From the NCBI RefSeq assembly GCF_012972705.2, contig NZ_JABCSC020000002.1, positions 1 through 64,000 of the forward strand: DNA of 64,000 nucleotides, written 5' to 3'. Origin of the DNA: Uliginosibacterium aquaticum (GTDB taxonomy: Bacteria > Pseudomonadota > Gammaproteobacteria > Burkholderiales > Rhodocyclaceae). Every line of letters starts with the position of its first letter. Position 1 is the first letter of the stretch. Below, piece after piece: positions 1 through 24,371 of the stretch. The notes beneath the pieces were generated by a model. It did not search any database, was not told the origin of the DNA, and saw nothing but the letters and a program-made list of their open reading frames with translations. Position numbers and translations under genes: made by a program.

Positions 1-103
1 ATTCATATGGACTTCCCCTTTCGCCATTCAGATTGAGTTTCGCAACCCCAATCTTGGCACTTTGATGCCGGCGAGGCTTACGCCTCCGGCGACTGTGGGA
101 AGT

Positions 104-197
104 CCCTTTTTAGTCCGTCGAGAGGGACGGTTTGAAGCTGCGCTTGTGGTTCCCTCCGCGCTTCGCGCTACGGCGTCCGCTTACTTCCACGTTAGGC
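104..197 (+). other. Decayed attC recombination site (integron cassette)
   Basis: Imperfect palindrome of the kind that ends integron gene cassettes. The right core GTTAGGC is at 191-197. The arms share TCGAGAGGGACG and GGTTCCCTCCGC with the clean site at 19943-20035. The left core, expected near 104-110, is no longer recognisable. The site sits immediately before the cassette gene at 218. Confidence 0.6.
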
Positions 198-217
198 GAA
201 CTCACAAGGAGACAGCA

Positions 218-3287: not shown

Positions 3288-4124
3288 TTAGGCTGCTTGA
3301 AGTTCAGCCGTGCTCGCCGTGAGTTGGGCGACGAACTCGGCAAGGGGAAGCGGAATACGGGTGATGTTCTGCTCGGCGATGAAGAGTTTCTCCATGCGGG
3401 TGAGCTCTTCGGGCATCACGGCCCAGTGCTGACCCGAGGAGCGCTTCATGATCTGGCGCGCGAAGCTGCGGGTGAGCTGATCGTTGAAACGGCAGCCAAC
3501 GAAGAGGAAATTCTTGCCTGTGCGCAGCCCCTGGATTTCGGCCGGGATCGGGGTCTGGATATCGATCTCGGTGAGTACTTCAACGTAATCGGTATCGGAG
3601 ACGAGGTAGTTGGCCGCCGGGTTGCTGCTGCCGATGGGCTTGTAGAGCAGGGTTTTCCATTCCGGCGCGCGTTCGGGTACGGCATTGCCGTTGCCGTCGT
3701 ACCAGCCGGTCCAGGTGCCGAAGTGTTCGGACTGCGACAGGCCCTGGACTTCGCCCCATTTCACCCCCTTGTCCTGCAGTGCGCGGGCCATGGCTTCGTC
3801 ATACCAGGTGTCGACGATCAGCGGGAAGCCCTGAGCGGCGAGCCAGTGATGAAAGGGTGAGGGCACCGGTTCGGCAAGAAAGGCGGCGTTCATCTGGTCG
3901 ATCAGGGTCTTGCGATGCTTGAAGTTTTCGATGAACTGGGCGGACTGGGTGAGCCGGGTGCGGATCTTGTGCGGCACCGAAACCTTGGCAGTGAGGAGCG
4001 CCACCAGGGCTTCCGGGGTGTTGGGCACGGCGTAGTCCGGTGCGAGCGAGAGCACGTCTGGCCCAAGGTAGGGAATCAGGGTGCCGGCACGCAGGCTGGC
4101 TTCGAGTTCGGTAGGGAGCGTCAT
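3288..4124 (-). CDS. SIR2-like domain protein
   Basis: A 278-residue protein of the SIR2_2-like superfamily. The N-terminus GTLIPYLGPDVLSL corresponds to the nucleotide-binding loop usually written L-P-LGAG-S, with a Pro-Asp change, and the segment NFLFVGCRFNDQLTRSF (about residues 205-221) matches the family's LF-G-S--D motif. Related domains bind or hydrolyse NAD+ or ADP-ribose derivatives in defence systems; here it sits in the nifB operon between a DegT-like gene and a ferredoxin, without defence genes nearby. A role in redox or ADP-ribose signalling for nitrogenase is only inference. No transmembrane segment is visible. Confidence 0.7.
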   Translation of the reverse strand: MTLPTELEASLRAGTLIPYLGPDVLSLAPDYAVPNTPEALVALLTAKVSVPHKIRTRLTQSAQFIENFKHRKTLIDQMNAAFLAEPVPSPFHHWLAAQGFPLIVDTWYDEAMARALQDKGVKWGEVQGLSQSEHFGTWTGWYDGNGNAVPERAPEWKTLLYKPIGSSNPAANYLVSDTDYVEVLTEIDIQTPIPAEIQGLRTGKNFLFVGCRFNDQLTRSFARQIMKRSSGQHWAVMPEELTRMEKLFIAEQNITRIPLPLAEFVAQLTASTAELQAA

Positions 4125-13735: not shown

Positions 13736-14170
13736 ATGGATCTCGTCTACAAAACCCGTGTATTCAGCCAGGGTGGCCGCAATGGCCGCGTGCAGAGTGA
13801 AGACGGCCTGCTCAAGGTGGATCTGGCCCAACCCGCCGAAATGGGTGGTAAGAAGCCGGGGGCCAACCCCGAGCAGCTGTTTGCTGCGGCCTATGCGGCC
13901 TGCTTCGAGAATTCGGTGCGCCACATCATCCGTGCCGACCGCCTGCCGGTGAAGGGCTGCATGGTCGAAGCAGAAGTGTCGCTGTACAAGAATTTCGAAG
14001 ATGCCTACCGCTTCTCGCTGTCCTTCGCCACCATCCTGCACGGCATTGATCAGGTGACGGCCGATTCGCTGGTCGAGCGGGCGCTGAAGGTCTGCCCCTA
14101 CACCGATGCCACCAAGAACAACATCACCGTGAAGGCGGTGGCTGTACTTGAAGCCCCCGCAACCGCCTGA
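13736..14170 (+). CDS. Organic hydroperoxide resistance (Ohr/OsmC) protein
   Basis: A 144-residue OsmC/Ohr-family thiol peroxidase, which detoxifies organic peroxides. Two catalytic cysteines are visible: AACFENSV near residue 60 and the CPYTDATKNN near 122. The second loop (CPYT-ATKNN) points to the Ohr subgroup. An internal ALKVCPYT helix completes the pattern. The start at 13736 (MDLVYKTRVF) follows GGAG 9-12 bases upstream. It is the first gene of an operon with the nitroreductase fusion, which starts one base after its stop. Upstream, TTTTGTCAC at 13557-13565 resembles the nif motif, but no convincing sigma-54 promoter is seen. Confidence 0.85.
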   Translation: MDLVYKTRVFSQGGRNGRVQSEDGLLKVDLAQPAEMGGKKPGANPEQLFAAAYAACFENSVRHIIRADRLPVKGCMVEAEVSLYKNFEDAYRFSLSFATILHGIDQVTADSLVERALKVCPYTDATKNNITVKAVAVLEAPATA

Positions 14171-14171
14171 G

Positions 14172-16751
14172 ATGCAGGACACGCCGCCCGCCGAACTCCC
14201 GCCCGACCTGCCGCCACCCAGCGTGGCGGATCTCGTGCGGGCCTATCATCGCCGCACCAAGCATCGCTTCGAGCGTTATGCCGCCGGCCCGGAAACGCTG
14301 GATTGGGACGATCAGCCGGCTGCTTTCCGCCATTTCGAGGGCGTCCGAAGCATTCCCTTGCCACTCGCTGAGCCGACGCAGCAGGGCGCGCTTGGCGAGG
14401 CCTTGCGGCGGCCCTTTGCAGCGCCCGTGACGCAGCATGTACCGTTTGATCTGGCCAGCCTGGGGGCTTGTCTGCATCTGGCGCTGGGCATCACGGCCTG
14501 GAAGCGCTATGGCCCGGATCGCTGGGCGGTGCGCGCCAATCCTTCCAGTGGCAACCTGCATCCGGTGGAGGCCTACCTGATCGCCTGCGACGTGCCGGGC
14601 CTCGCCAATGGTCTCTATCACTACGAACCCGAGCAGCATGCGCTGGAGTGCCGCGCCCGCCATCTTTCGACTGGCTCCCTGCCACCCGGTCTGCATATTG
14701 CACTGAGCTCGGTGATGTGGCGGGAAGCCTGGAAATACGGTGAGCGCGCCTTCCGCTATTGCCAGCTCGATACCGGCCACGCCATGGCGGCACTGCGCTA
14801 TGCCTGCGCTGCCATGGGCTGGAGCCTCACCGCACAGCCTCAGCTCGATAATCACCTGCTGGCCAGCGTACTGGGCCTCGATCGGCTGGCAGACTTTCCC
14901 GCCCGCCGTGCGCAGGCGACCGAACTGGAGGAAGCCGAAGTACTGCTCAGCCTCGGCTTGGATAACTCACCCGCCCCAGTGCCCACGGCTCGTGCCCTGC
15001 GTGCAGCCAGCAGTTCAGCGGTTTGGATGGGAACGGCCAGCAGCATCGATCGCCACCCGATGTATCACTGGCCGGTGATCGCGGAAGTGGCAGCGCTGAC
15101 CCGCGAAGCCCTGTGCACCACGGCACGCCAGAGCAGCCTGGCCTTGCCGCCCGGGCAGGGCGGTGAGCACGAAGATGCGGCCTCAGGGAAGGGCCCGGGC
15201 TTTGCCGAAGTGGTGCTTGGGCGGCGCAGCGCGCAGCACTTCGATCCGGCTTTCCGCATGCCACGCACCGCCTTCATGCACCTGATGAGTCGCCTCATGG
15301 CGCAACCGGCGGCCCCCTGGGATGTGCTGCCAGCCGTATGGGAAATGCATCTGCTGCTTTTCGTGCACCGAGTTGAAGATTTGCCCTGCGGAGCCTATCT
15401 GCTCACCCGGGGGAAGGCCGGCAATGCCCTGCAGCAGCGCCTGAACCAGCACTACACCCTGAGTCCAGTCGCAGGCCTGCCGCCCGGCCTGGATCTGCAA
15501 CTCATCGCGGCCATGGAGGCGCCCGCTTTGCAGCGCCTCGCGCGCAGCCTGCATTGCCATCAGGACATCGCCGCCCACGCCAGCTTCGCGCTGGGCATGC
15601 TGTGCGAATTCGACCCGGCGCTGGAAGCCAGCCCCGCAAGCTACCGGGAGCTTTTCCGCCAGGCGGGTCTGCTCGGTCAGGTGCTGTATCTCGAAGCAGA
15701 GGCTATGGGCCTGCGTGGCACCGGAATCGGCTGCTATTTCGACGATGCGGTGCACGAGATGCTGGGCCTTGAAGACACGCATTACCAATCCCTCTACCAC
15801 TTCACTGTCGGCAAGCCACGGCTGGACGAGCGCATCGAGACACTCGCCGCCTATGCCGACAGGGAAACGGCCGTTTCAACCGCCCCCAACGTCACAGCAG
15901 AGCCCATCATGAGCACCACGGAAGAAGCCTCTCCGGAAATGTCCCCCCGATTTCAGCGCATCAGCGCCCAGCGCGCTGCCGAGCTGATCCAGCGCCATCG
16001 CCAGGCCAGCCCACCGACCCTGGCACTGTTCGATACACGTGATCGCATGAGCTTCGACGCGGGTCATATTGCCGGCGCCCAGTTTCTCAGTGACGCCAGC
16101 TTTGGCCAGATCATGGCCGGCCTGCCGCGCAGCACACCGATCATGCTGTACTGCTTCCGTGGCAATGCCAGCCAGACCTGGGCCGGCATGTTCGCGGATT
16201 TCCGCTACACCGAGGTGTATAGCGTCGATGGCGGCCACGATGCGCTGGCGGCGGCGCTGGCGCAGCCCGCAGCGCCCGTACCAGCAGGCCCGCCCGGTGA
16301 GCTCAGCGCGTCATTGCGCAATTTTCTCAGCGCCCGCGGCTTCACACCGGAGAAGCTCAACGAAGCCCGCGAACATGGGCTTACGCCACTGATGCATGCC
16401 GCCTGGCGCGGGGAGGTGGCCTTGCTCCGCGAGCTGATCGCGCTGGGTGCCGACGTGCAGTGCCGTAATGCCGATGGCAACACCGCTGTCTGGCTGGCCT
16501 GTGTGGCGGCGAGCGAAGAGGCTGTGCGCGCATTGGCCGAAGCCGGCGCGCAGCTCGATAGCCGTAACGACACCGGTGCTACCGCGCTGATGTACTGCGC
16601 CTCCAGTGCCAAGCCCGCGATGCTGGCTCTGCTGCTCGAGCTTGGCGCCGATCCAATGGTGACGAACTTTGACGATGCGCGTGCCGTGGATCTGTGTGCC
16701 AGCCTCGAGTGCCTGAATCTGCTGCGCCATACCGCCGATTTGCCCACCTGA
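14172..16751 (+). CDS. Nitroreductase-nitroreductase-rhodanese-ankyrin fusion (SagB/ThcOx-type)
   Basis: An 859-residue multidomain protein. Residues about 30-300 form a SagB-type flavin oxidoreductase domain (RANPSSGNLHPVEAYL and GLYHYEPEQHALE). A second, divergent nitroreductase-like domain covers about 300-570, ending in GIGCYFDDAVHEMLGL. Residues 580-700 form a rhodanese domain with its catalytic Cys661 in the YCFRGNAS loop. Residues 735-850 contain three ankyrin repeats (TPLMHAAWRGEVALL, AVWLACVAASEEAV, ALMYCASSAKPAML). SagB-type domains oxidise azolines in peptide maturation, but no peptide-cyclising partners are seen here. The start is ATG 14172, one base after the Ohr-like stop; a TTG at 14148 would overlap it. 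An internal ATG at 15909 could permit separate expression of the rhodanese-ankyrin part. Confidence 0.8.
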   Translation: MQDTPPAELPPDLPPPSVADLVRAYHRRTKHRFERYAAGPETLDWDDQPAAFRHFEGVRSIPLPLAEPTQQGALGEALRRPFAAPVTQHVPFDLASLGACLHLALGITAWKRYGPDRWAVRANPSSGNLHPVEAYLIACDVPGLANGLYHYEPEQHALECRARHLSTGSLPPGLHIALSSVMWREAWKYGERAFRYCQLDTGHAMAALRYACAAMGWSLTAQPQLDNHLLASVLGLDRLADFPARRAQATELEEAEVLLSLGLDNSPAPVPTARALRAASSSAVWMGTASSIDRHPMYHWPVIAEVAALTREALCTTARQSSLALPPGQGGEHEDAASGKGPGFAEVVLGRRSAQHFDPAFRMPRTAFMHLMSRLMAQPAAPWDVLPAVWEMHLLLFVHRVEDLPCGAYLLTRGKAGNALQQRLNQHYTLSPVAGLPPGLDLQLIAAMEAPALQRLARSLHCHQDIAAHASFALGMLCEFDPALEASPASYRELFRQAGLLGQVLYLEAEAMGLRGTGIGCYFDDAVHEMLGLEDTHYQSLYHFTVGKPRLDERIETLAAYADRETAVSTAPNVTAEPIMSTTEEASPEMSPRFQRISAQRAAELIQRHRQASPPTLALFDTRDRMSFDAGHIAGAQFLSDASFGQIMAGLPRSTPIMLYCFRGNASQTWAGMFADFRYTEVYSVDGGHDALAAALAQPAAPVPAGPPGELSASLRNFLSARGFTPEKLNEAREHGLTPLMHAAWRGEVALLRELIALGADVQCRNADGNTAVWLACVAASEEAVRALAEAGAQLDSRNDTGATALMYCASSAKPAMLALLLELGADPMVTNFDDARAVDLCASLECLNLLRHTADLPT

Positions 16752-16777
16752 TACGCAGTACCGCAAGGAGAAGCACC

Positions 16778-17224
16778 ATGAGTGACTTGCTGCAAACCAA
16801 CCGCGTGATCCTGGCGCATTTCGATTCCTACAGCGCCGCCTTGCTGTTCGCACGCTGGGAGCATGGCCTGCTGGGTCCGGCCGCACTGCCAGTCACGGCA
16901 ACGCCGGCGGCGGCTCCCGCACAGATCGCGCCTGAGCATCAAGGCGCGGCGGTGCTCCAAGCTGCAATCGTGCATTACGGTCTGAATCCGGCTGAAGTCA
17001 CCCGCATGGAGGATTTCGATGCCTGGTATCAGGAAGAGGGCCAGCTGATCCGTGTGCATGTGCTGCGCTTTACCGGCTTCGAAGCGCCGGTGGAGCTGAT
17101 CGCAGAGCAGGGCGGTGTCATGCGCGCCATCAGTGCCCTGCGCGGCGCCGCGATGAGCGAGCTACTCTTGCTGCGCGAGGTTTTCAATATCCTGGTCGGC
17201 GGCGCCCAGCGCGCCACGACCTAA
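16778..17224 (+). CDS. Hypothetical protein between fusion gene and flavodoxin
   Basis: A 148-residue soluble protein beginning MSDLLQTNRVILAHFDSYSA, with a proline/alanine-rich linker (about residues 38-52) and a C-terminal helical region (AMSELLLLREVFNILVGG). I do not recognise the family. The start at 16778 has AAGGAG 7-12 bases upstream. It lies 26 bases after the fusion gene and 18 bases before the flavodoxin gene, so it is almost certainly co-transcribed with them. The dominant DAWYQEEGQLIRVHVLRFTGFEAPV region suggests an alpha/beta fold. No metal-binding motif is present. Confidence 0.6.
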   Translation: MSDLLQTNRVILAHFDSYSAALLFARWEHGLLGPAALPVTATPAAAPAQIAPEHQGAAVLQAAIVHYGLNPAEVTRMEDFDAWYQEEGQLIRVHVLRFTGFEAPVELIAEQGGVMRAISALRGAAMSELLLLREVFNILVGGAQRATT

Positions 17225-17242
17225 TCAGCAAGGGGCTGGATC

Positions 17243-17809
17243 ATGAGCAGAATCGGCATTTTCTTCGGCACCGAAACCGGCACGACGCGCCTGATTGCCA
17301 AGAAACTTCACAAACTGCTGGGCGACGAGATCGCCGACAAGCCGCTCAATGTCAATCGGATAGCGCCTGCCCAGATGCTGGCGTACGACTGTTTGCTGCT
17401 TGGCACACCCAGCTATGGCGTGGGGCAGATTCCCGGGCGCAGCGCGGGCTGCCTCGAATCGAGCTGGGAAGAGTTTCTCGCCGAGCTGCCGGAGGACCTT
17501 AGCCTCGCCGGCAAGCGGATCGCCTTCTTCGCGCTCGGCGCCCAGGAACGCTATGCCGAGCGTTTCGCGAGTTCGCTGCGACTCGTGCATGACGCATTCA
17601 AGAAGCGGGGTGCCGAAATCGTCGGCCAATGGAGCACCGAAGGCTATGTGTTCGAGCATTCGGCTTCAGTGGAAGATGGAAAATTTCTCGGCCTGATTCT
17701 TGATCAGCGCACCCAGAGCCAGCTCACCGATACGCGCCTCGCGGCCTGGCTGGAAGAGTTGAGGCCCTTGCTGCTGGAGAAGATTGCGCTTGAGGGTATG
17801 ACGAACTAG
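17243..17809 (+). CDS. Flavodoxin (NifF-like), first copy
   Basis: A 188-residue long-chain flavodoxin. The FMN phosphate loop is FFGTETGTTR at residues 7-16, and the isoalloxazine loops are around GTPSYGVGQIPGR and FALGAQERYAERF. Long-chain flavodoxins carry electrons to nitrogenase under iron limitation or nif induction. The start at 17243 has AAGGGG 9-14 bases upstream. A second flavodoxin is encoded at 40780-41328; this one differs in the loop near 55-62 and has an extra C-terminal helix. It ends the operon that begins with the Ohr-like gene. Confidence 0.85.
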   Translation: MSRIGIFFGTETGTTRLIAKKLHKLLGDEIADKPLNVNRIAPAQMLAYDCLLLGTPSYGVGQIPGRSAGCLESSWEEFLAELPEDLSLAGKRIAFFALGAQERYAERFASSLRLVHDAFKKRGAEIVGQWSTEGYVFEHSASVEDGKFLGLILDQRTQSQLTDTRLAAWLEELRPLLLEKIALEGMTN

Positions 17810-17844
17810 CACGCGTTATTTGAGGCAAGGTAAATCAAAGAGTG

Positions 17845-17870
17845 ATCAAGCCCGCAGCAAGGGGCTTGAT
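17845..17870 (+). terminator. Hairpin after the flavodoxin gene
   Basis: ATCAAGCCC (17845-17853) pairs with GGGCTTGAT (17862-17870); a second small hairpin, CCATCAATTGATGG, follows at 17874. No T-run is present, so the hairpin may be a barrier or processing element rather than a strict intrinsic terminator. Confidence 0.4.
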
Positions 17871-18313
17871 GCGCCATCAATTGATGGTGGATCACCCGTT
17901 CTGAAATAGCATGCTCACGCTGCTGTTGATATGATCTCAGCGTATTGGATGCCATGATCAGTCGGCGGCAATCGGCCACAAGCGGACGATCAGGTTTGCG
18001 GCTTCAAAGCAGCCGTTCAACGCACCGAAACTGAAATCTGTAGAGTGAGGTTTTTGTCGATTCTGTTAATGCTGTTCATCTTTACAGCGGAATCGTGGAG
18101 AGCCGCTCTGGAAGCCAATCTTCGCTGGTCGGTCGTGCCATGTTAGGGAGCACGCGCCGATGTTAGGCGGCAAAACTGATCCCTATAACACGTTGGGCCT
18201 CTTGAGCTTATGACGCAGTTTCTTCGTTGGTCGTGTTCTTCGGTAGCCGTGTCACCACGGCTGACTTTGGTTTGCCTACGCTCCACAGCTCCGACAAGGG
18301 CACCCCGGTAATC
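17871..18313. other. Non-coding left end of the second cassette array
   Basis: No convincing gene. Integron core-like sequences occur at 18142-18148 (GTTAGGG), 18162-18168 (GTTAGGC), 18183-18189 (CTATAAC) and 18192-18198 (GTTGGGC), but no complete attC palindrome is obvious. This may be a decayed recombination site or an eroded first cassette. No integrase gene is present. Confidence 0.4.
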
Positions 18314-18601
18314 ATGCTTGCCCTACTTACGTTCTTTCCGACTATCGTTGCCGTCCTCGTTCTCGGGCTGTCCTTTACATTCGGCCACCCTGTCGAGTTG
18401 GGCCAAGTTGGGTGGCTAATTTCCGAAGCTCAGGCAGTGTTTCTTGCAATTGGCGCTGTCGCAATACTCTTGTCGCGGAAGTCTGCTCGTCCGCTGCCTC
18501 CTTGGCGGGCTATCGCAAATCTCTGGGTGGGGCGTGTCTTGGCCGCATCTGCGATCTTCTACCTTATTGCGTTCGCTCTAGTTACTTACCATGGCCCGTA
18601 A
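18314..18601 (+). CDS. Small membrane protein of unknown function (cassette)
   Basis: A 95-residue integral membrane protein with three probable transmembrane segments: residues 4-25 (LLTFFPTIVAVLVLGLSFTF), 36-54 and 74-92. It ends ALVTYHGP. Between segments two and three lies a basic loop (SRKSARPLPPW). I do not recognise it. The start at 18314 opens the first hydrophobic segment; a longer in-frame reading from 18227 adds 29 residues without a visible ribosome site. It lies in the second cassette array, ahead of the attC at 18616-18682. Confidence 0.5.
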   Translation: MLALLTFFPTIVAVLVLGLSFTFGHPVELGQVGWLISEAQAVFLAIGAVAILLSRKSARPLPPWRAIANLWVGRVLAASAIFYLIAFALVTYHGP

Positions 18602-18615
18602 GCAAAGCAATCGAG

Positions 18616-18682
18616 GCCCAACCCATCATTCCACCGGACCTGCGCGAAAAGCCGCGCAGGCCGGTGAATTCAAACGTTAGGG
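18616..18682 (+). other. attC site
   Basis: Left core GCCCAAC (18616-18622) and right core GTTAGGG (18676-18682). The long arms CACCGGACCTGCGCG and CGCGCAGGCCGGTG form a nearly perfect stem. It closes the cassette carrying the gene 18314-18601 and leads into the gene at 18691. Confidence 0.85.
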
Positions 18683-18690
18683 CTCAAAGC

Positions 18691-19125
18691 ATGGGCGCCA
18701 TGTATTCGGTTTATCCCTTGACCGCGGAAATCAAGCCTTGGCTTGATGAAATGTCTGTCGAGTACCCGCCAAGTCCAGAAGGGCGCAATCCGCACCTTGC
18801 GGAAATACAATCTGCACTCGCCCAACTCGAAGGCTATTCCATCAAAGCCCTCACTGCCGAGGTCGGAAAGACCTGGCAGGCCCTCCTAGAGAGCACGCAA
18901 GGGCCAGAAGAAAATGGCTGGACACTTCTCAGCATCATCCAGGTAACCGATGGCCCCAATGACTTCTACTTTGAGAAAGGCTGGCCTGATCTGATCGTGA
19001 AAATCATGCATCTCATCAGCAGTTTCACCGGGCCGTTGGTTCTTATTTGCGATGCAGGTGACCCACCCCTAGTTGTTAGTGCTGATGCCGATCCTTCTGC
19101 CTTATATGAGGCGTGGGGCACATGA
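18691..19125 (+). CDS. Cassette gene of unknown function
   Basis: A 144-residue acidic protein beginning MGAMYSVYPLTAEIKPWLDE and ending ALYEAWGT. Predicted alternating helices and strands (GWTLLSIIQVTDGPNDFYFEKGWPD, GPLVLICDAG) suggest a soluble alpha/beta protein. No family is recognised. It starts 8 bases after the attC right core, as is usual for cassettes, and ends where the next attC begins (19127). No ribosome site is obvious; translation may rely on leaderless or upstream-coupled initiation. Confidence 0.65.
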   Translation: MGAMYSVYPLTAEIKPWLDEMSVEYPPSPEGRNPHLAEIQSALAQLEGYSIKALTAEVGKTWQALLESTQGPEENGWTLLSIIQVTDGPNDFYFEKGWPDLIVKIMHLISSFTGPLVLICDAGDPPLVVSADADPSALYEAWGT

Positions 19126-19126
19126 A

Positions 19127-19213
19127 CCCTAACATGGCGCTCAACCCCGCTCCTTTCAGTCGCTGGACGCTGCGCGATAGAGCCGCGCAGCGCCGGTTAG
19201 CTCTACGTTAGGC
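19127..19213 (+). other. attC site
   Basis: CCCTAAC (19127-19133) and GTTAGGC (19207-19213). The arms GGCGCTCAACC and GGTTAGCTC and a GCTGCGCG/CGCGCAGC stem form the palindrome. Its right arm CCGGTTAGCTCTACGTTAG is identical to that of the attC at 1284-1333. Confidence 0.85.
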
Positions 19214-19243
19214 CAGGCCAAGTGCATACCACGAATTCAAACA

Positions 19244-19948
19244 ATGAAACATAATAATGAACTTTCTTTCCTGCAAGGAAGTGCTGTTGTTTTTCTGTCC
19301 ATTTCCGTGGCTTACGTAATCCATGAAATATTTCCAATCATTGATATTGGAAATTTATCAATTATTTTTTTGATAGTATTTTTTCTATTTAGATTAATCT
19401 TCATGCTGTCCAGCAAAAGAATACGAGAGTCGAGAGGGATGCCGACTCGAGATCACAAGGATATTAATAAAACTATAAAAATAAGACATCCTTTGGATGG
19501 TGCAATAGGTGGCCCAGTTATAACTGCAATACTTGCATATATTTTGTTTTATCCAGAAATGATTGGCTTATCACTCGCTGATGCACCAACACCCGAGATA
19601 TATTTAATTGTTTTTTTAACATTCCTTCCTGGGGTTTTAGGGGGCTGTGCGATGATTAACTGTCGAACATCCATAGAGCTTACAAGAAATGAAATAAAAA
19701 TATTTAGACCGAAAAGAAATAGAAAGACAATCCACCTGTCTGACATTAATGACTTATTTGTGCCGCCAAAAGACCCGACCCCGATTTCATACGAGCCTGG
19801 TTCTTGCGAGCCTGATTTATTAATAATTCATTTAAGCATCTCTGGGGCTGCGGAAGAGATAAATTTTGCCGGTCTCAATAGAAGCGCAGATGATTTTGCT
19901 GCAGATATTTCTATGCGTATAGAGGCTTTAAATGACTATCGAGCCTAA
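19244..19948 (+). CDS. AT-rich multi-pass membrane protein (cassette)
   Basis: A 234-residue membrane protein with four probable transmembrane segments: residues 10-30, 36-56, 83-103 and 112-134, followed by a charged cytosolic domain (about 140-234, with RNEIKIFRPKRNRKTIHL). Its codons are distinctly AT-rich against the GC-rich surroundings, a sign of recent transfer. No family is recognised. The start ATG at 19244 follows the attC right core by about 30 bases. The stop (19946-19948) overlaps the left core of the next attC. Confidence 0.75.
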   Translation: MKHNNELSFLQGSAVVFLSISVAYVIHEIFPIIDIGNLSIIFLIVFFLFRLIFMLSSKRIRESRGMPTRDHKDINKTIKIRHPLDGAIGGPVITAILAYILFYPEMIGLSLADAPTPEIYLIVFLTFLPGVLGGCAMINCRTSIELTRNEIKIFRPKRNRKTIHLSDINDLFVPPKDPTPISYEPGSCEPDLLIIHLSISGAAEEINFAGLNRSADDFAADISMRIEALNDYRA

Positions 19949-20035
19949 CCATTTCGTCGAGAGGGACGTCCGCAAGCTGCGCTTGCGGTTCCCTCCGCCT
20001 GCGGCTCCGGCCGCCCCTCACGTCAAACGTTATGC
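19943..20035 (+). other. attC site
   Basis: GCCTAAC (19943-19949) and GTTATGC (20029-20035). The arms contain CAAGCTGCGCTTGCGG and GGTTCCCTCCGCCTGCGG, closely like the sites at 104-197 and 766-858. The right core contains the ATG of the next gene. Confidence 0.9.
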
Positions 20036-20586
20036 CTAGCGATACTCGATCCGCCGAAATATCAAAGCAGCACGTCAAACAACTCTCTCGCCTTATCGGT
20101 TTAGAGTTTTGGCGCATCTATGCCAGTCCATTTGAAGTCGACTCCCGAGAAGGCATTCTTCGGTCATTCTGGGTTGGTATTCCAGCTTCTGAACGCAGTA
20201 TTCTCGTGATAAAGAACGAAAATTATTTCGTAACGCAGAACGTGCTGCTCAATTATTTCGACATAACAGTCACAGAAGAATCGTGGAAGCCTGAGACACC
20301 TCAGGAGCAGTCTTGGTCTTTTCTACATGTTGTACACAAAGATGGCTCCGCCTCACCAATCCTGAGGTCGATTGAAATATATGAGGAAACTTCCGAGGAC
20401 GAAAACATTCTCGGCGATAGAGATACTGTGACTTACGACAAGGCCCTCTTATTTTGCGCGGACAACGATTTGCGCATCTGCGTACGACTAGAGGACACAA
20501 TTGCAGCTAGATTTGAGATCTTGATAAATGCCGATCAAATTCGAATGGGTCTGTCTGGCCTCTCCAAGAGAAATACAATCGCATAA
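20032..20586 (+). CDS. Cassette gene of unknown function
   Basis: A 184-residue soluble acidic protein beginning MPSDTRSAEISKQHV. Its ATG (20032) lies inside the attC right core GTTATGC, and its stop TAA (20584-20586) lies inside the left core of the next site, so the whole cassette is coding. Alternating strands (FWVGIPASERSILVIKNENYF, QSWSFLHVVHKDGS) suggest an alpha/beta fold. I recognise no family. Its codon use is less GC-rich than that of neighbouring nif genes. Confidence 0.7.
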   Translation: MPSDTRSAEISKQHVKQLSRLIGLEFWRIYASPFEVDSREGILRSFWVGIPASERSILVIKNENYFVTQNVLLNYFDITVTEESWKPETPQEQSWSFLHVVHKDGSASPILRSIEIYEETSEDENILGDRDTVTYDKALLFCADNDLRICVRLEDTIAARFEILINADQIRMGLSGLSKRNTIA

Positions 20587-20670
20587 CAAGTCCGTCAACG
20601 GGACGCCAAACTGCTGCGCAGTTTGGTTCCCTCCGCTGCGCTCCGGCGCCCGTTACGTCCAACGTTGAAC
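20581..20670 (+). other. attC site
   Basis: GCATAAC (20581-20587) and GTTGAAC (20664-20670), with arms CGGGACGCCAAACTGCTGC and GCAGTTTGGTTCCCTCC. Immediately after it, TGAACGTCTGCTTTCCG (20666-20682) repeats a sequence found at 1467-1482 beside the first array. Confidence 0.85.
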
Positions 20671-20723
20671 GTCTGCTTTCCGAGAGACTGAGCGTCCGCA
20701 CGGGGTCGAAAGCTGCTCAGCGG

Positions 20724-20795
20724 AGTGCGCAGATACCGCCAGCGCGGTCATCCAGTGAGCCCTGCAGGCGCTCGCGGATGACCCAATTGCGCACT
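20724..20795. repeat. Nested inverted repeat at the array border
   Basis: Outer arms AGTGCGC (20724-20730) and GCGCACT (20789-20795) enclose inner arms GGTCATCC (20746-20753) and GGATGACC (20776-20783). This long stem lies between the last attC and the gene 20844-21350. It may be a bidirectional terminator or a leftover recombination site. Confidence 0.5.
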
Positions 20796-20843
20796 AGGGC
20801 AATGAAGCCACCGTTGACCCTGGGTTTGGGACCGTTCGGCGTT

Positions 20844-21350
20844 TCAGATGAGCTGACAGCCTGCTTCGAGCAGACGCGGGATGGCGTGAATCTCGCAGTC
20901 CAGGCCTACTTCGTCGAGCACCTGTTCGGCGGCGACCGGGCTGGCAAAAACGTATTGCCAGATGCTGCCTTCGCCAGCGTGCTCGAACCAGTTGCCCTCG
21001 GGCTGCCGGTGCAGCAGGCCCAGCACATAGCCTGCGCCTGCGAGACGCAGGCCGGCGCGCCCCATGTCGGCCTCGAAGGCGGTGTATTGCCCGCCCTCGA
21101 GTTCGGCGATGATTTCCCAGGCATGTGCTTCGTCGGTGACTTGCTGGTAGTCCTGCACCGGATCGCTGGCCGCGCGGCCGAGCGTTTCGCCACGCCCGGC
21201 GATACAGGCCTGCATCAGTGCCGCCAGGGAGGCTGCTGCCTGCGCCTGAAGGCCGTCGATGGCCAGCACACAATTGTCATCCTGGTCAAAAGCGTAGAGA
21301 TGTACGCCGGTGGCGTTTTCGATGGCCTGTACGGTGACGATGCTGGGCAT
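20844..21350 (-). CDS. Hypothetical soluble protein
   Basis: A 168-residue protein beginning MPSIVTVQAIENATGVHLY and ending LEAGCQLI. The middle contains EGGQYTAFEADMGRAGL, LGLLHRQPEGNW and a QYVFASPVAAEQVLDEVGLDC helix-strand pattern. Three cysteines are present (about residues 27, 50 and 154) with no clear metal motif. No family is recognised. The start at 21350 is preferred over one 12 codons upstream. It lies between the second cassette array and the GNAT/DUF938 gene, transcribed toward the array. Confidence 0.55.
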   Translation of the reverse strand: MPSIVTVQAIENATGVHLYAFDQDDNCVLAIDGLQAQAAASLAALMQACIAGRGETLGRAASDPVQDYQQVTDEAHAWEIIAELEGGQYTAFEADMGRAGLRLAGAGYVLGLLHRQPEGNWFEHAGEGSIWQYVFASPVAAEQVLDEVGLDCEIHAIPRLLEAGCQLI

Positions 21351-21420
21351 GGTGCGGCTCCTGTGAGAGATGCCTTCTTCTAGCAAGATCCGAACCGCGT
21401 CGGGCTACAGCCTTGGCGGC

Positions 21421-22581
21421 TCAGAAGGTCCACACCAGACAGCGATTGTTGGCCGGCATGGCCCGATCTTCAATGAGTGTCAGACCCTGTGCATCCGCCA
21501 GGGCGCAGACGGCTTCGAAATCACGGATGCCCCGATGCGCACCGCCAGCCTTGAGCCACTGGTCGAACTCGGCATTGCTGGGGCTGCTGTACTGGCCGCC
21601 GTAGTTGAATGGGCCGTAGATCACGAGGCGAGCAGGGCGCTCCAGCGCGTCCGGCAGGCGGACGAAGAACTGCTCCACCTCATGCCAGGCCATGATGTGG
21701 AGCGTGTTGGATGAAAACACAGCGTCATAGCCGCTGGCCGGCCAGGGCTTGCTCACATCCAGCTGTAGTGGTGGCAAAGTGTTAGGCAGAGCTGCACTGG
21801 CCAGCCAGGCTTCGATGCCGGGCAGGGTTTCGGTTCGTTCGCTGCATTGCCAAGCCAGATGCGGCAGGGCTGCGGCGAAGTGGATGGCATGCTGGCCGGT
21901 GCCACTGCCAATCTCGAGTACCTTGCGGCAAGCGGCGAAGTGTTCGCGCAGCACCTCAAGAATGGGCTCGCGGTTGCGGGCGACAGAGGGCGCGTCGGGT
22001 CTGGAATGATTCATTTTCGGATACGAAAGGGGCGGGTCGCCATTGTCGCTGCGGGTGATCGCGTACAGAAGCATGTCGCGTGGCCGACTCGAAATATTGG
22101 GGTGCAGGGTGTGGCTTGCCAGGCGCCCTTCTTGGCGCAGTCCGGCTTTCTCGAGCATGCGCGCCGAGGCGAGATTATCCACATCACATAGCGCCTCGAT
22201 GCGTTGCAAGGAGGGCTGACGGAAGGCTGTGGCGAGCAGGGCGCGCAAGGCTTCGCTCATCAGACCGCGCCCCCAGTGAGTGGGGGTGAGCATGCAGCCC
22301 AGACGCAGCAGGTGGGGCTCGATTCGGGCGAGCTGAAGCAGACCGATGACGGAGCCGTCTTCCTCGATGAGCCAGCTCCAGCCGGCCCCACGATCCCAAC
22401 GCAGCAGATCGAGGCTGATCTGCTGGCGGGTCTGGCGTAGCTCGGCGTGTGGCGTCCAGCCCAGGTAGCGGGTCACCTGAGTTTCGCCTGAAAGGCGCGC
22501 GAAGACGGCTTCGGCGTCGGACGGCAGGGGCTTGCGTAGCAGCAGGCGCGGCGTACGCAGTTCGGCAGGCGGCCAGTTCAT
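21421..22581 (-). CDS. GNAT acetyltransferase / DUF938 methyltransferase-like fusion
   Basis: A 386-residue protein with two domains. Residues 1-185 form a RimJ/RimL-type N-acetyltransferase (LRTPRLLLRKP, then HWGRGLMSEALRALL acetyl-CoA loop). Residues 195-386 match DUF938, an SAM-dependent methyltransferase-like family (VLEIGSGTGQHAIHFAA, then PLQLDVSKPW and YGPFNYGG). DUF938 proteins usually begin near SRPDAPS-ARN; that sequence follows an internal Met at residue 190 (YPKMNHSRPDA), so separate translation is possible. No substrate can be inferred. It is the gene immediately downstream of nifA. Confidence 0.75.
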   Translation of the reverse strand: MNWPPAELRTPRLLLRKPLPSDAEAVFARLSGETQVTRYLGWTPHAELRQTRQQISLDLLRWDRGAGWSWLIEEDGSVIGLLQLARIEPHLLRLGCMLTPTHWGRGLMSEALRALLATAFRQPSLQRIEALCDVDNLASARMLEKAGLRQEGRLASHTLHPNISSRPRDMLLYAITRSDNGDPPLSYPKMNHSRPDAPSVARNREPILEVLREHFAACRKVLEIGSGTGQHAIHFAAALPHLAWQCSERTETLPGIEAWLASAALPNTLPPLQLDVSKPWPASGYDAVFSSNTLHIMAWHEVEQFFVRLPDALERPARLVIYGPFNYGGQYSSPSNAEFDQWLKAGGAHRGIRDFEAVCALADAQGLTLIEDRAMPANNRCLVWTF

Positions 22582-22626
22582 CTGAAGACCGAGCCTGCCT
22601 GACGTGCCCGGCTTGCCGGCAACCGA

Positions 22627-24270
22627 TCAGAAGCGCGGCACGTTGATGTCGTACTTCTTCAGCGCGTAGCCCATCTGGCGGCCGGTGATGTTGAGCAGGC
22701 GCGCGGCCTTGGCGCGCACGCCGCGGGCTTGCTCCATGGCCCAGATCAGGCGCTCGCGCTCGCCCTCGGGCTTGCCGTCGCCGACGGCCGGCTCGGCGGG
22801 CCGTGCGCCTGCCTGGCCGGGCGCTTGCGGTGCTTCGTAGCTGATCATCTCGGTTTCCGCCGGGGCGACAGCGTCATCCTTCTTCACGAAGTGCAGAACC
22901 TGCGTCAGGCAGCGGTTGTGGGTACAGGGGAAATCCTGCATGTCGACCCGGTCGTTGCGGGTCATGGTGGCCACGCGCTCGATACAGTTTTCGAGCTCGC
23001 GCACATTGCCTGGCCAGTAACAGTGCTGCAGCACGGACTGTGCTGAGTCCGTGAGCGCGATGTGGCGATCATTCTCGGCATTGAAGCGTTGAATGAAGTG
23101 ACTGGCCAGCGCAGGAATGTCGTTCGGGCGCTCACGCAGGGCGGGCAGGAAGATGCTGATCACGTTGATGCGGAAATACAGGTCGGAGCGGAAGGTGCCG
23201 GCGCTGACCATCTTTTCAAGGTTGCGGTTGGTGGCGCAGATCAGGCGCACATCGACCTTGATCGGTTTGCTGCCGCCCACCCGCTCGAACTCGCGCTCCT
23301 GCAGCACACGCAGCAGCTTGGTCTGGAACGCAGCGGAGATGTCGCCGATCTCGTCCATGAACAGGGTGCCGCCATCGGCCATCTCGAAGCGCCCCTTGCG
23401 CACGCCGGCGGCACCGGTGAAGGCGCCTTTCTCATGGCCGAAGAGTTCGGATTCGAGCAGGGTTTCGGACAGCGCCGCACAGTTGACCTTGATGAAGGGC
23501 TGATCCTTGCGGGGGGACAGCTCGTGGATCGCGCGGGCGATCACTTCCTTGCCGGTGCCGCTCTCGCCGCGCAGCAGCACGGTGGAGCGTGAAGGTGCGA
23601 CCAGGTGGGCTTCGGCAAAAACCTGCTGCATGCGATCGGAAGCGCCCACTACATTGTCGAGCGTGAAGCCGGCCGGGCGGGCGTCTCGCTCCTGCTCGGT
23701 TTTCAGCACCAGGCGCTCGCGCTCTTCGGTGACGATGCGGCGCAGGGCGACGGCCTGACCGACCAGATTGGCCACCATGCTGAGCAGGCGCACATCGCGG
23801 CCGAAACCGCCGTTACCGTCTTCGTCCTTGCGGTCGATCGTGAGCACGCCGATCACATTGGTGGTGGCGCGGATCGGCACGCCAATGAAGGCTGTCGGCA
23901 CCACATCGGTTTCGCTGAGCGACTGGGTGCGGTTCAGGAACAGGGGCTCCTGTGAAATATCCGGGATCACATTGGGCGAGCCAAGCGAGTAGATCCGCCC
24001 GATGACCCCTTCGCCGGGGCGATAGCGCGCAGCCTGCGCCTCGGCCACAGTGAGGCCGACCGAGACCGCCAGCTCCAGATCCTCGGCCTCGTCATCCTTG
24101 AGCAGCACCATGCTGCGGCGAAACCCGAGCAGGGACTGGAGCACGTTAAGGGATTCGCGCAAGGTCCGGCTGACATCCAGGGATGAACTGAGGATCTTGC
24201 TGATCTCATAGATGGTGACCAGCTCGAGCGAGGCTCGTTTGTCCACCAGGTTTCCTGTCGTCGCAATCAT
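22627..24270 (-). CDS. nifA: NifA, sigma-54 activator of nif genes
   Basis: A 547-residue enhancer-binding protein. Residues about 20-180 form a GAF domain; 205-440 form the AAA+ domain with GESGTGKE (Walker A), GAFTGA (sigma-54 contact) and the DEIGD motif; residues about 505-547 form the Fis-type helix-turn-helix (ARLLNITGRQMGYALKKY). Between the AAA+ and helix regions the cysteines follow C-x11-C-x19-C-x4-C exactly, the hallmark of oxygen-sensitive NifA that works without NifL. A sigma-54-like promoter lies at 24372-24387. It should activate the GG-N10-GC promoters found through the window. Confidence 0.97.
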   Translation of the reverse strand: MIATTGNLVDKRASLELVTIYEISKILSSSLDVSRTLRESLNVLQSLLGFRRSMVLLKDDEAEDLELAVSVGLTVAEAQAARYRPGEGVIGRIYSLGSPNVIPDISQEPLFLNRTQSLSETDVVPTAFIGVPIRATTNVIGVLTIDRKDEDGNGGFGRDVRLLSMVANLVGQAVALRRIVTEERERLVLKTEQERDARPAGFTLDNVVGASDRMQQVFAEAHLVAPSRSTVLLRGESGTGKEVIARAIHELSPRKDQPFIKVNCAALSETLLESELFGHEKGAFTGAAGVRKGRFEMADGGTLFMDEIGDISAAFQTKLLRVLQEREFERVGGSKPIKVDVRLICATNRNLEKMVSAGTFRSDLYFRINVISIFLPALRERPNDIPALASHFIQRFNAENDRHIALTDSAQSVLQHCYWPGNVRELENCIERVATMTRNDRVDMQDFPCTHNRCLTQVLHFVKKDDAVAPAETEMISYEAPQAPGQAGARPAEPAVGDGKPEGERERLIWAMEQARGVRAKAARLLNITGRQMGYALKKYDINVPRF

Positions 24271-24371
24271 GGGGGCGATCCTCTGCTAGGCGAGACAGCT
24301 GGGGGCTGGCGCTGTCTCTTTTCCGGTGCAGGTCTGGAAGAAAACGTGCCTGGATCCGGTGACTAATCTCT

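Follow-up and report, generated by a model that had tools for sequence, protein, structure and literature searches.

An integron cassette array on an attI site lacking its integrase in the nif region of Uliginosibacterium aquaticum

Introduction

Integrons are taught as one integrase, one attI site and one cassette array, and in the integron mobilisation units flanked by miniature inverted-repeat transposable elements (MITEs), inverted repeats surround the cassette array. Here, we analyse a cassette array located between a flavodoxin gene and a nifA-type regulator gene of Uliginosibacterium aquaticum, within a stretch of 64,000 nucleotides (the window) at the beginning of contig NZ_JABCSC020000002.1. 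The genome is a 13-contig draft, and the window begins at position 1 of the contig that we number C7. We conclude that this is probably a small integron array on an orphan attI: the integrase gene, intI, was lost in cis, the attI-bearing head spread, and the copies were loaded with cassettes in trans.

The array shares the layout of attI and intI promoter, in register, with chromosomal class-1-type integrons (IntI1/attI1; represented here by genomes G096, G107 and G036), but intI and its start codon are missing and several copies are present per genome. Compared with the MITE-flanked mobilisation units, neither a target duplication nor a transposase is shown here. Clusters of attC sites lacking integron integrases (CALINs), the loss of intI and the mobilisation of CALINs in trans have already been described, as set out in the pertinent parts of PMC8618304 and PMC12444791. 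The array resembles a CALIN in being an array of attC sites without a nearby intI, and differs from it in having a real attI at its head and in that this head belongs to a dispersed family. Xanthomonas CALINs away from ilvD are likewise cassette clusters at several loci of one genus, but their description, in the portion of PMC12444791 concerned, includes no dispersed attI heads. The Delta-attI-type cassettes of mobile integrons also have attI outside its usual place; according to the section of PMC12901181 devoted to them, however, that attI lies within cassettes, behind the gene, whereas here it leads the array. In the portions of the open-licence papers covered by our literature search, there is no report of multi-copy, dispersed attI heads without integrase. 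IntegronFinder, as characterised in part of PMC9024848, detects no attI outside class 1, so that standard annotation would miss such heads.

An attI head without its integrase gene

An earlier, sequence-only reading had placed an array with four attC sites at 17871-20683. The array is present, but it is more than a bare attC cluster: it is headed by an attI whose integrase gene was deleted, a head that was overlooked by that reading and that extends left only to about 17971. The attI crossover follows G18192, and a right end begins at 20665. The parts of the unit are listed below, with bit scores from the attC covariance model R1 described in the next section.

17971-18036, + strand: left end of the head, where similarity among copies approximately begins; an inverted copy of the right end is at 17982-18018
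18037-18136, + strand: remnant of the intI start and promoter, with a conserved block at about 18037-18069 and the LexA-box-like CTGTTCATCTTTACAG at 18072-18087
18137-18198, + strand: attI, from similarity to attI beside intI and from model R2, with the crossover between G18192 and T18193
18193-18676, + strand: cassette 1, with a gene for a 124-residue hydrophobic protein (18227-18601, no Pfam match) and attC1 (18616-18682, 64.5 bits)
18677-19207, + strand: cassette 2, with a reading frame (18691-19125, no Pfam match) and attC2 (19127-19213, 38.6 bits)
19208-20029, + strand: cassette 3, with an AT-rich gene for a putative membrane protein (19244-19948) and attC3 (19943-20035, 52.2 bits)
20030-20664, + strand: cassette 4, with a gene (20032-20586) and attC4 (20581-20670, 42.4 bits)
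20665-20709, + strand: right end, an inverted copy of the left end that starts at the crossover; similar right ends occur in a few other units

By sequence similarity, positions 18137-18198 are an attI homologous to the attI beside intact class-1-type intI and, as in a complete integron, this attI adjoins the first cassette. In G096 and G107, the last 50-70 bases of the head are found directly upstream of an intact intI, in the attI position, and the window attI is 84-85% identical to the intI-adjacent attI of G096 and 86% identical to that of G107. Furthermore, in an alignment with class-1-type heads (loci L075, L077-L080 and L089), the register is kept throughout the region of the intI start, the box of LexA type and the entire attI; the class-1-type integrases (from three of those loci and two more) are 75-77% identical to the integrases of G096 and G107. 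The window attI has the same layout as attI1, with elements that we take to be those named DR1, DR2, L and R, and can be aligned with it across the whole site, but has diverged. Of the 22 heads known at the time, 19 went into the sequence model R2, which included no intI-adjacent locus (G002_C109, G003_C35 and the diverged second copy of G002_C98 were left out). This model recovered the intI-adjacent sites of G096 and G107 (E 9.6e-15) as well as class-1-type attI (E 4e-8 to 7e-6), with attI1-type loci scoring 23-31 bits.

The remnant at 18037-18136 aligns in register with the heads of intact class-1-type integrons, and also in the 19-copy alignment. The motif at 18072-18087 is presumably a LexA box, and the pattern CTGTN8ACAG has a single occurrence in the window. 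The intI start codon of the head is replaced (CAT to GTC) and no intI reading frame remains; all six orphan heads shown in the alignment have GTC where intact integrons have the intI start (CAT on this strand), and in all 19 heads of alignment A2 the start codon is absent from its place. Two blocks are conserved in the alignment of 22 heads, namely the attI and TCTG...AGTGAGGTTTTTGTCGATTCTGTTA, which matches the old intI start.

At the other end, the array terminates in TTGAACGTCTGCTTTCC.., which starts at the crossover and repeats the left end of the head in inverted orientation (76% over 41 bases); head and cassettes together resemble a unit bounded by inverted ends. Searching the 4.09-Mb genome for the two-part end motif gave two exact matches, both of them ends of the window array (the left one on the - strand), from which the motif itself was written. 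Comparison of the genome with itself showed that window 17971-18194 is repeated on contigs C10, C6 and C11, with the similarity stopping at or just past the GTT at 18192-18194.

The attC sites and the cassettes

The four attC sites of the sequence-only reading are real, as all were found, at 38.6-64.5 bits, by covariance model R1; a CALIN has two or more. R1 was made from 42 attC of arrays beside integron integrases in other genomes, chosen by eye from attC-finder output and with the window outside the training set, and was run on the window with filters off; its base pairs covary (92 cells changed on both sides, compared with 32.7 in shuffles). Background matches in the window, both cassette arrays aside, reached 11.6 bits and lower. 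The bottom strands fold better than dinucleotide shuffles, with z = -5.0, -2.7, -3.0 and -3.4 for attC1, attC2, attC3 and attC4, respectively (0, 2, 1 and 0 of 200 shuffles folded as well), but in the minimum-energy folds of attC3 and attC4 the outer core boxes are unpaired and the full canonical hairpin is not formed; some outer core box bases are paired in the centroid fold of attC3. A scan of the window with Rfam at gathering thresholds gave no match.

Arrays in other genera of the same family contain attC identical to attC1 (100% over 64 bases) or nearly so to attC2 (97.6% over 85 bases). On plasmids, attC4 is matched by the attC of dfrA22 and fosI cassettes, at 96.6-100% over 83-88 bases in the 20 records listed of 23 matching; dfrA22 cassettes make up 18 of these 20 and their attC is 100% identical over 83 bases (20581-20666). 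The attC4/dfrA22 identity hints that the dfrA22 cassette took its attC from bacteria like these.

As had been noticed before, genes start or stop inside the core sites: the stop codon TAA of gene 3 (19946-19948) is within the first core of attC3, and gene 4 has its ATG (20032) in the last core of attC3 and its stop in the first core of attC4. Gene 3 had also been called an AT-rich membrane protein gene; it is AT-rich (36.6% GC, compared with 61.1% for the window), whereas the membrane character of its product is a prediction from the sequence. Pfam searches of the cassette proteins gave nothing reliable. The two proteins that were also searched in plasmids, encoded by cassettes 3 and 4, had no match there.

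Search for an integrase

The sequence-only reading had proposed searching the rest of the genome for an integrase able to act on these sites. The TIGR02249 profile gave no match over the cut-off in the assembly, neither beside the array nor elsewhere, which is the situation of a CALIN. Neither the intact integrase of a complete integron nor the intI1 gene of a class 1 integron was thus found in this draft, several contigs of which end inside attC arrays. The matches below the cut-off were two genes on C6, which by size and score we take for xerC and xerD, together with a 34-residue piece at C8:607468-607569 (about 1530-1606 of locus L005); the IntI of a congener, used as a query, returned the same C6 and C8 matches plus one at chance level. 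The C8 piece is a C-terminal, integron-integrase-like fragment (74% identity over 34 residues), and the surrounding 20 kb (L125) showed no attC. Its neighbours, named from their translations, are a NodT-like outer-membrane gene on one side and a gene for an ABC-transporter permease on the other. To the left of the window attI, no integrase-like frame was seen by eye in the translations and no intI remnant was found by tblastn.

Integrons are common in the family. In a sample of 297 genomes, drawn evenly from a larger group, an integrase is matched at E 1e-60 or less in 175 and over the cut-off in 170, and U. aquaticum is among the 122 without a match at E 1e-60. Within the genus, intact intI is present in two genomes, G001 and G004.

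A dispersed family of integrase-less heads

At E 1e-5 or less, R2 detected 51 heads in 24 of the 297 genomes, counts that may be low, as nine candidates per genome were scored with R2 and two in an earlier sequence search. The genus accounts for 24 heads in seven of its eight genomes (four in U. aquaticum, five in G003, three in G007, four in G002, six in G006, one each in G001 and G004, and none in G005). None of these 24 has an integrase beside it, with 21 testable over at least 2 kb on the intI side; the C69, C70 and C9 heads of G006 have a contig end on that side. A 59-residue match (47%) located 3.5 kb to the left of the G006 C27 head is at the level of the xerC/xerD-like genes of U. aquaticum. 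Outside the genus, 11 of 27 heads have a full intI nearby, three have an incomplete one (G085, G161 and the second head of G167), and for the remaining 13 no intI is present over at least 2.7 kb (G107 has five of these heads, G108 three, G155 two, and G147, G177 and G209 one each). G107 combines two intact intI with five heads that have no adjoining intI. An additional head without intI in its 9-kb locus was found in G305, below the R2 list.

Downstream of the heads, attC scoring at least 20 bits and oriented like the head were present within 2.5 kb for 13 of the 24 genus heads and for 10 of the 13 integrase-less heads elsewhere, compared with one of 24 (three without upstream sequence) and one of 13, respectively, in the upstream control. 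Of the genus heads without such an attC, four have little sequence on their cassette side, namely G001_C78, the U. aquaticum C11 head and G007_C2 with under 600 bases and G006_C27 with about 1.5 kb; in G003_C9, stretches resembling attC score below the cut-off. A search of plasmids with the head DNA gave no match. The five G006 units at L207, L208, L217, L218 and L219 all share left modules, about 290-570 bp long, and four of them also have right modules in common, which measure about 120-340 bp.

Order of events and alternative explanations

In a pairwise comparison of 22 genus heads (G002_C37 not included), 14 of the 18 heads outside G006 have a similar left side, different from intI, to -204 or further, the common left side being shorter in G007_C5, G002_C109 and G003_C35. 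This shared flank suggests that the deletion of intI preceded the spread of the head. On the right-hand side, similarity ends 0 to +11 bases from the crossover, or earlier where attI is broken, except for the pair G001_C78/G007_C5, which is alike to +24/+27; cassettes would therefore have been inserted or exchanged at the heads after the loss of intI in cis. Because precise insertion at attI is the work of an integrase and would here postdate the cis loss, we infer that an integrase acted on the heads in trans, which is the main argument for our conclusion.

Accounting for these observations, a class-1-like integron in the ancestor of the genus would have lost intI from the start codon onwards, so that a head of about 160-230 bp remained, consisting of the intI promoter region with its LexA-like box, plus attI. 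The head would then have been copied to many chromosomal places, where an integrase encoded elsewhere in the cell, or a transient one, would insert circular cassettes by attI x attC recombination. One head landing beside the flavodoxin gene would have acquired four cassettes of the kind circulating among the integrons of the family, and the array in U. aquaticum would now be frozen unless an integrase arrives.

Several observations weigh against this scenario. No intact integrase from the matching clade was found in any genome of the genus, and the enzyme postulated to act in trans is accordingly missing; the intact intI of G001 and G004 are, as far as compared, of another kind, that of G001 being 56-58% identical to class-1-type ones. 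Contigs C7, C8, C10 and C11 end in or beside arrays, and an intI could for this reason be present in an assembly gap. At the 20-bit cut-off, 11 of the 24 genus heads show no attC. The core GTT is kept in 16 of 22 heads and lost in six (the second copy of G002_C98, G002_C109, G003_C2, G004, G003_C33 and G003_C9), and part of the family is thus decaying; at the same time, the conserved 23-base block in the heads is at odds with simple decay. Neither a clean empty site nor a target duplication was found. The empty-site search for the C6 array of U. aquaticum showed the right-flank gene to be conserved in relatives, with no match for the left flank.

The heads could alternatively be the remains of ordinary CALINs, that is, of several complete integrons that repeatedly and independently lost intI, with the attI left over each time. 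Loss of intI is a published route to CALINs (in the relevant part of PMC8618304), and the incomplete intI beside heads of G085, G161 and G167, the C-terminal integrase fragment on C8 and the broken core in six of 22 heads are all in line with it. We nevertheless consider this unlikely, because independent losses would not yield the same lost start codon among the genus copies and a similar left side in 14 of 18 of those outside G006, and several heads per genome have no intI remaining. A different proposal, which has some appeal but is doubtful, is that the heads are parts of a MITE-like non-autonomous element with terminal inverted repeats, for which attI and cassettes are cargo; it explains the spread of the heads and does not exclude loading in trans. 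The ends of the window array are mutually inverted, and the motif written from them has no other exact match in the genome. A right end at the crossover is present in the C7 (the source of the motif) and C6 arrays of U. aquaticum, in G003 C1 and in G007 C4, the last three with two, two and three mismatches of 16, respectively. The G006 copies have common left modules, and in four cases common right modules, around different cassettes, as if whole units had been copied or cassettes exchanged inside them. However, inspection of five units by eye revealed no target-site duplication, the search for a right end was unsuccessful in 17 of 22 units (several of them cut by a contig end), the G004 match, located by position, has five mismatches of 16 and is no better than controls (best 3-9), and no transposase has been identified as a helper.

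Cassettes can also be inserted at secondary chromosomal (attG) sites without attI, an event known from a Nat Microbiol 2024 paper that is listed as a reference entry in PMC11023631 and mentioned in PMC12444791, and around the attC pair at C8:303556-305708 the head model indeed detected no head over 9 kb (L142). The full attI at the left end of the window array makes this origin highly improbable here, and we rejected it for this array; head-less arrays may still have arisen in this way.

Returning to loading in trans, multi-copy attI without integrase and with differing sequence past the crossover imply action on distant attI sites and would offer cassettes many chromosomal addresses. We tentatively extend this to a distributed integron, in which mobile, integrase-free attI pads, possibly a non-autonomous element with inverted ends, would seed chromosome-wide arrays served by one integrase in trans, while the intI-promoter remnant would be retained because of a separate role, such as cassette expression. 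If this is true, cassettes could be placed beside very different host operons, here nif. Dispersed heads could also explain part of the CALINs of unknown origin. G107, with its intact integrases and its heads lacking an adjoining one, is a ready test system.

Relation to the nif genes

The sequence-only reading was correct in placing the array between the following two genes.

17243-17809, + strand (that of the cassettes): flavodoxin gene, left neighbour (Pfam Flavodoxin_1, E 1.5e-17)
22627-24270, - strand: nifA-type regulator gene, right neighbour, named from its domains (Pfam GAF, sigma-54 activator and Fis-type HTH)

That reading had also noted that it knew of no arrays inside a nif island from the literature; by itself, however, the location is unremarkable, as attC matches occur at seven places of the genome, and the head at three further places in it and in six of the seven congeners. 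There was no sign that the cassette genes are ordinary operon genes conserved with nif: none of 67 flavodoxin loci compared contains a match to them. These include L047, L056, L066 and L068, where the flavodoxin gene adjoins nifB or genes 45-47% similar to this nifA and where no match to these cassettes was found. In congeners, the matches returned for window 16600-24300 correspond to the head, to pieces of attC and to a sigma-54 domain located elsewhere, and this nif neighbourhood is not seen among them. The C7 head is nearest to that of G007 C4 (94%), and otherwise only the short right end there matches the window. Given these unmatched surroundings and the lack of the nif neighbourhood in congeners, the head probably arrived in the nif region separately instead of travelling together with it. 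Between the flavodoxin stop codon and 18244, no terminator-like site was detected, and the cassettes lie downstream on the same strand, so that read-through from the flavodoxin gene into the cassettes is possible. A promoter scan gave one match, outside the head, compared with 2.4 in shuffles.

Other attC arrays and neighbouring genes

Genome-wide, R1 gave 15 matches (E 1 or less) at seven places, namely the nif-region array, the starts of C7 and C8, C8:303-306 kb, the ends of C10 and C11, and C6:602 kb. The array at the start of C7 is inside the window:

104-1333, + strand: first cassette array, from R1 attC matches, with its upstream end off the contig

Its attC at 1284-1333 scores 33.6 bits, whereas that at 766-858 (28.8 bits) has a degenerate last core and a fold z of only -1.5. 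The stretch at 104-197 scores at background level (11.4 bits), yet is 92-99% like the attC ends at C8 and C11. An R1 search of contig ends and small contigs gave nothing new above 20 bits; a new weak match (17.7 bits) is at L141:3207-3263. Two sets of repeats, each 92-99% identical, are shared among contig ends: window 1-200, C8:1-200 and the C11 end, a set that holds an attC, and C6:1-141, C11:1-135 and the C10 end. The assembly thus breaks in cassette arrays, and more array is hidden in the gaps. The attC pair on C8 has an 89% direct repeat of 1.95 kb on both sides (L142, C8:300000-309000).

Near the first array, 3288-4124 (- strand) encodes a SIR2-like protein (Pfam SIR2_2, E 7.4e-21), possibly a defence gene. 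Upstream of the flavodoxin gene, an 867-residue frame (14148-16751) has a SagB-type dehydrogenase domain and a rhodanese-like (GlpE) match below the cut-off. Adjoining the nifA-type gene, 21421-22581 (- strand) encodes a GNAT acetyltransferase domain fused to a DUF938 domain.

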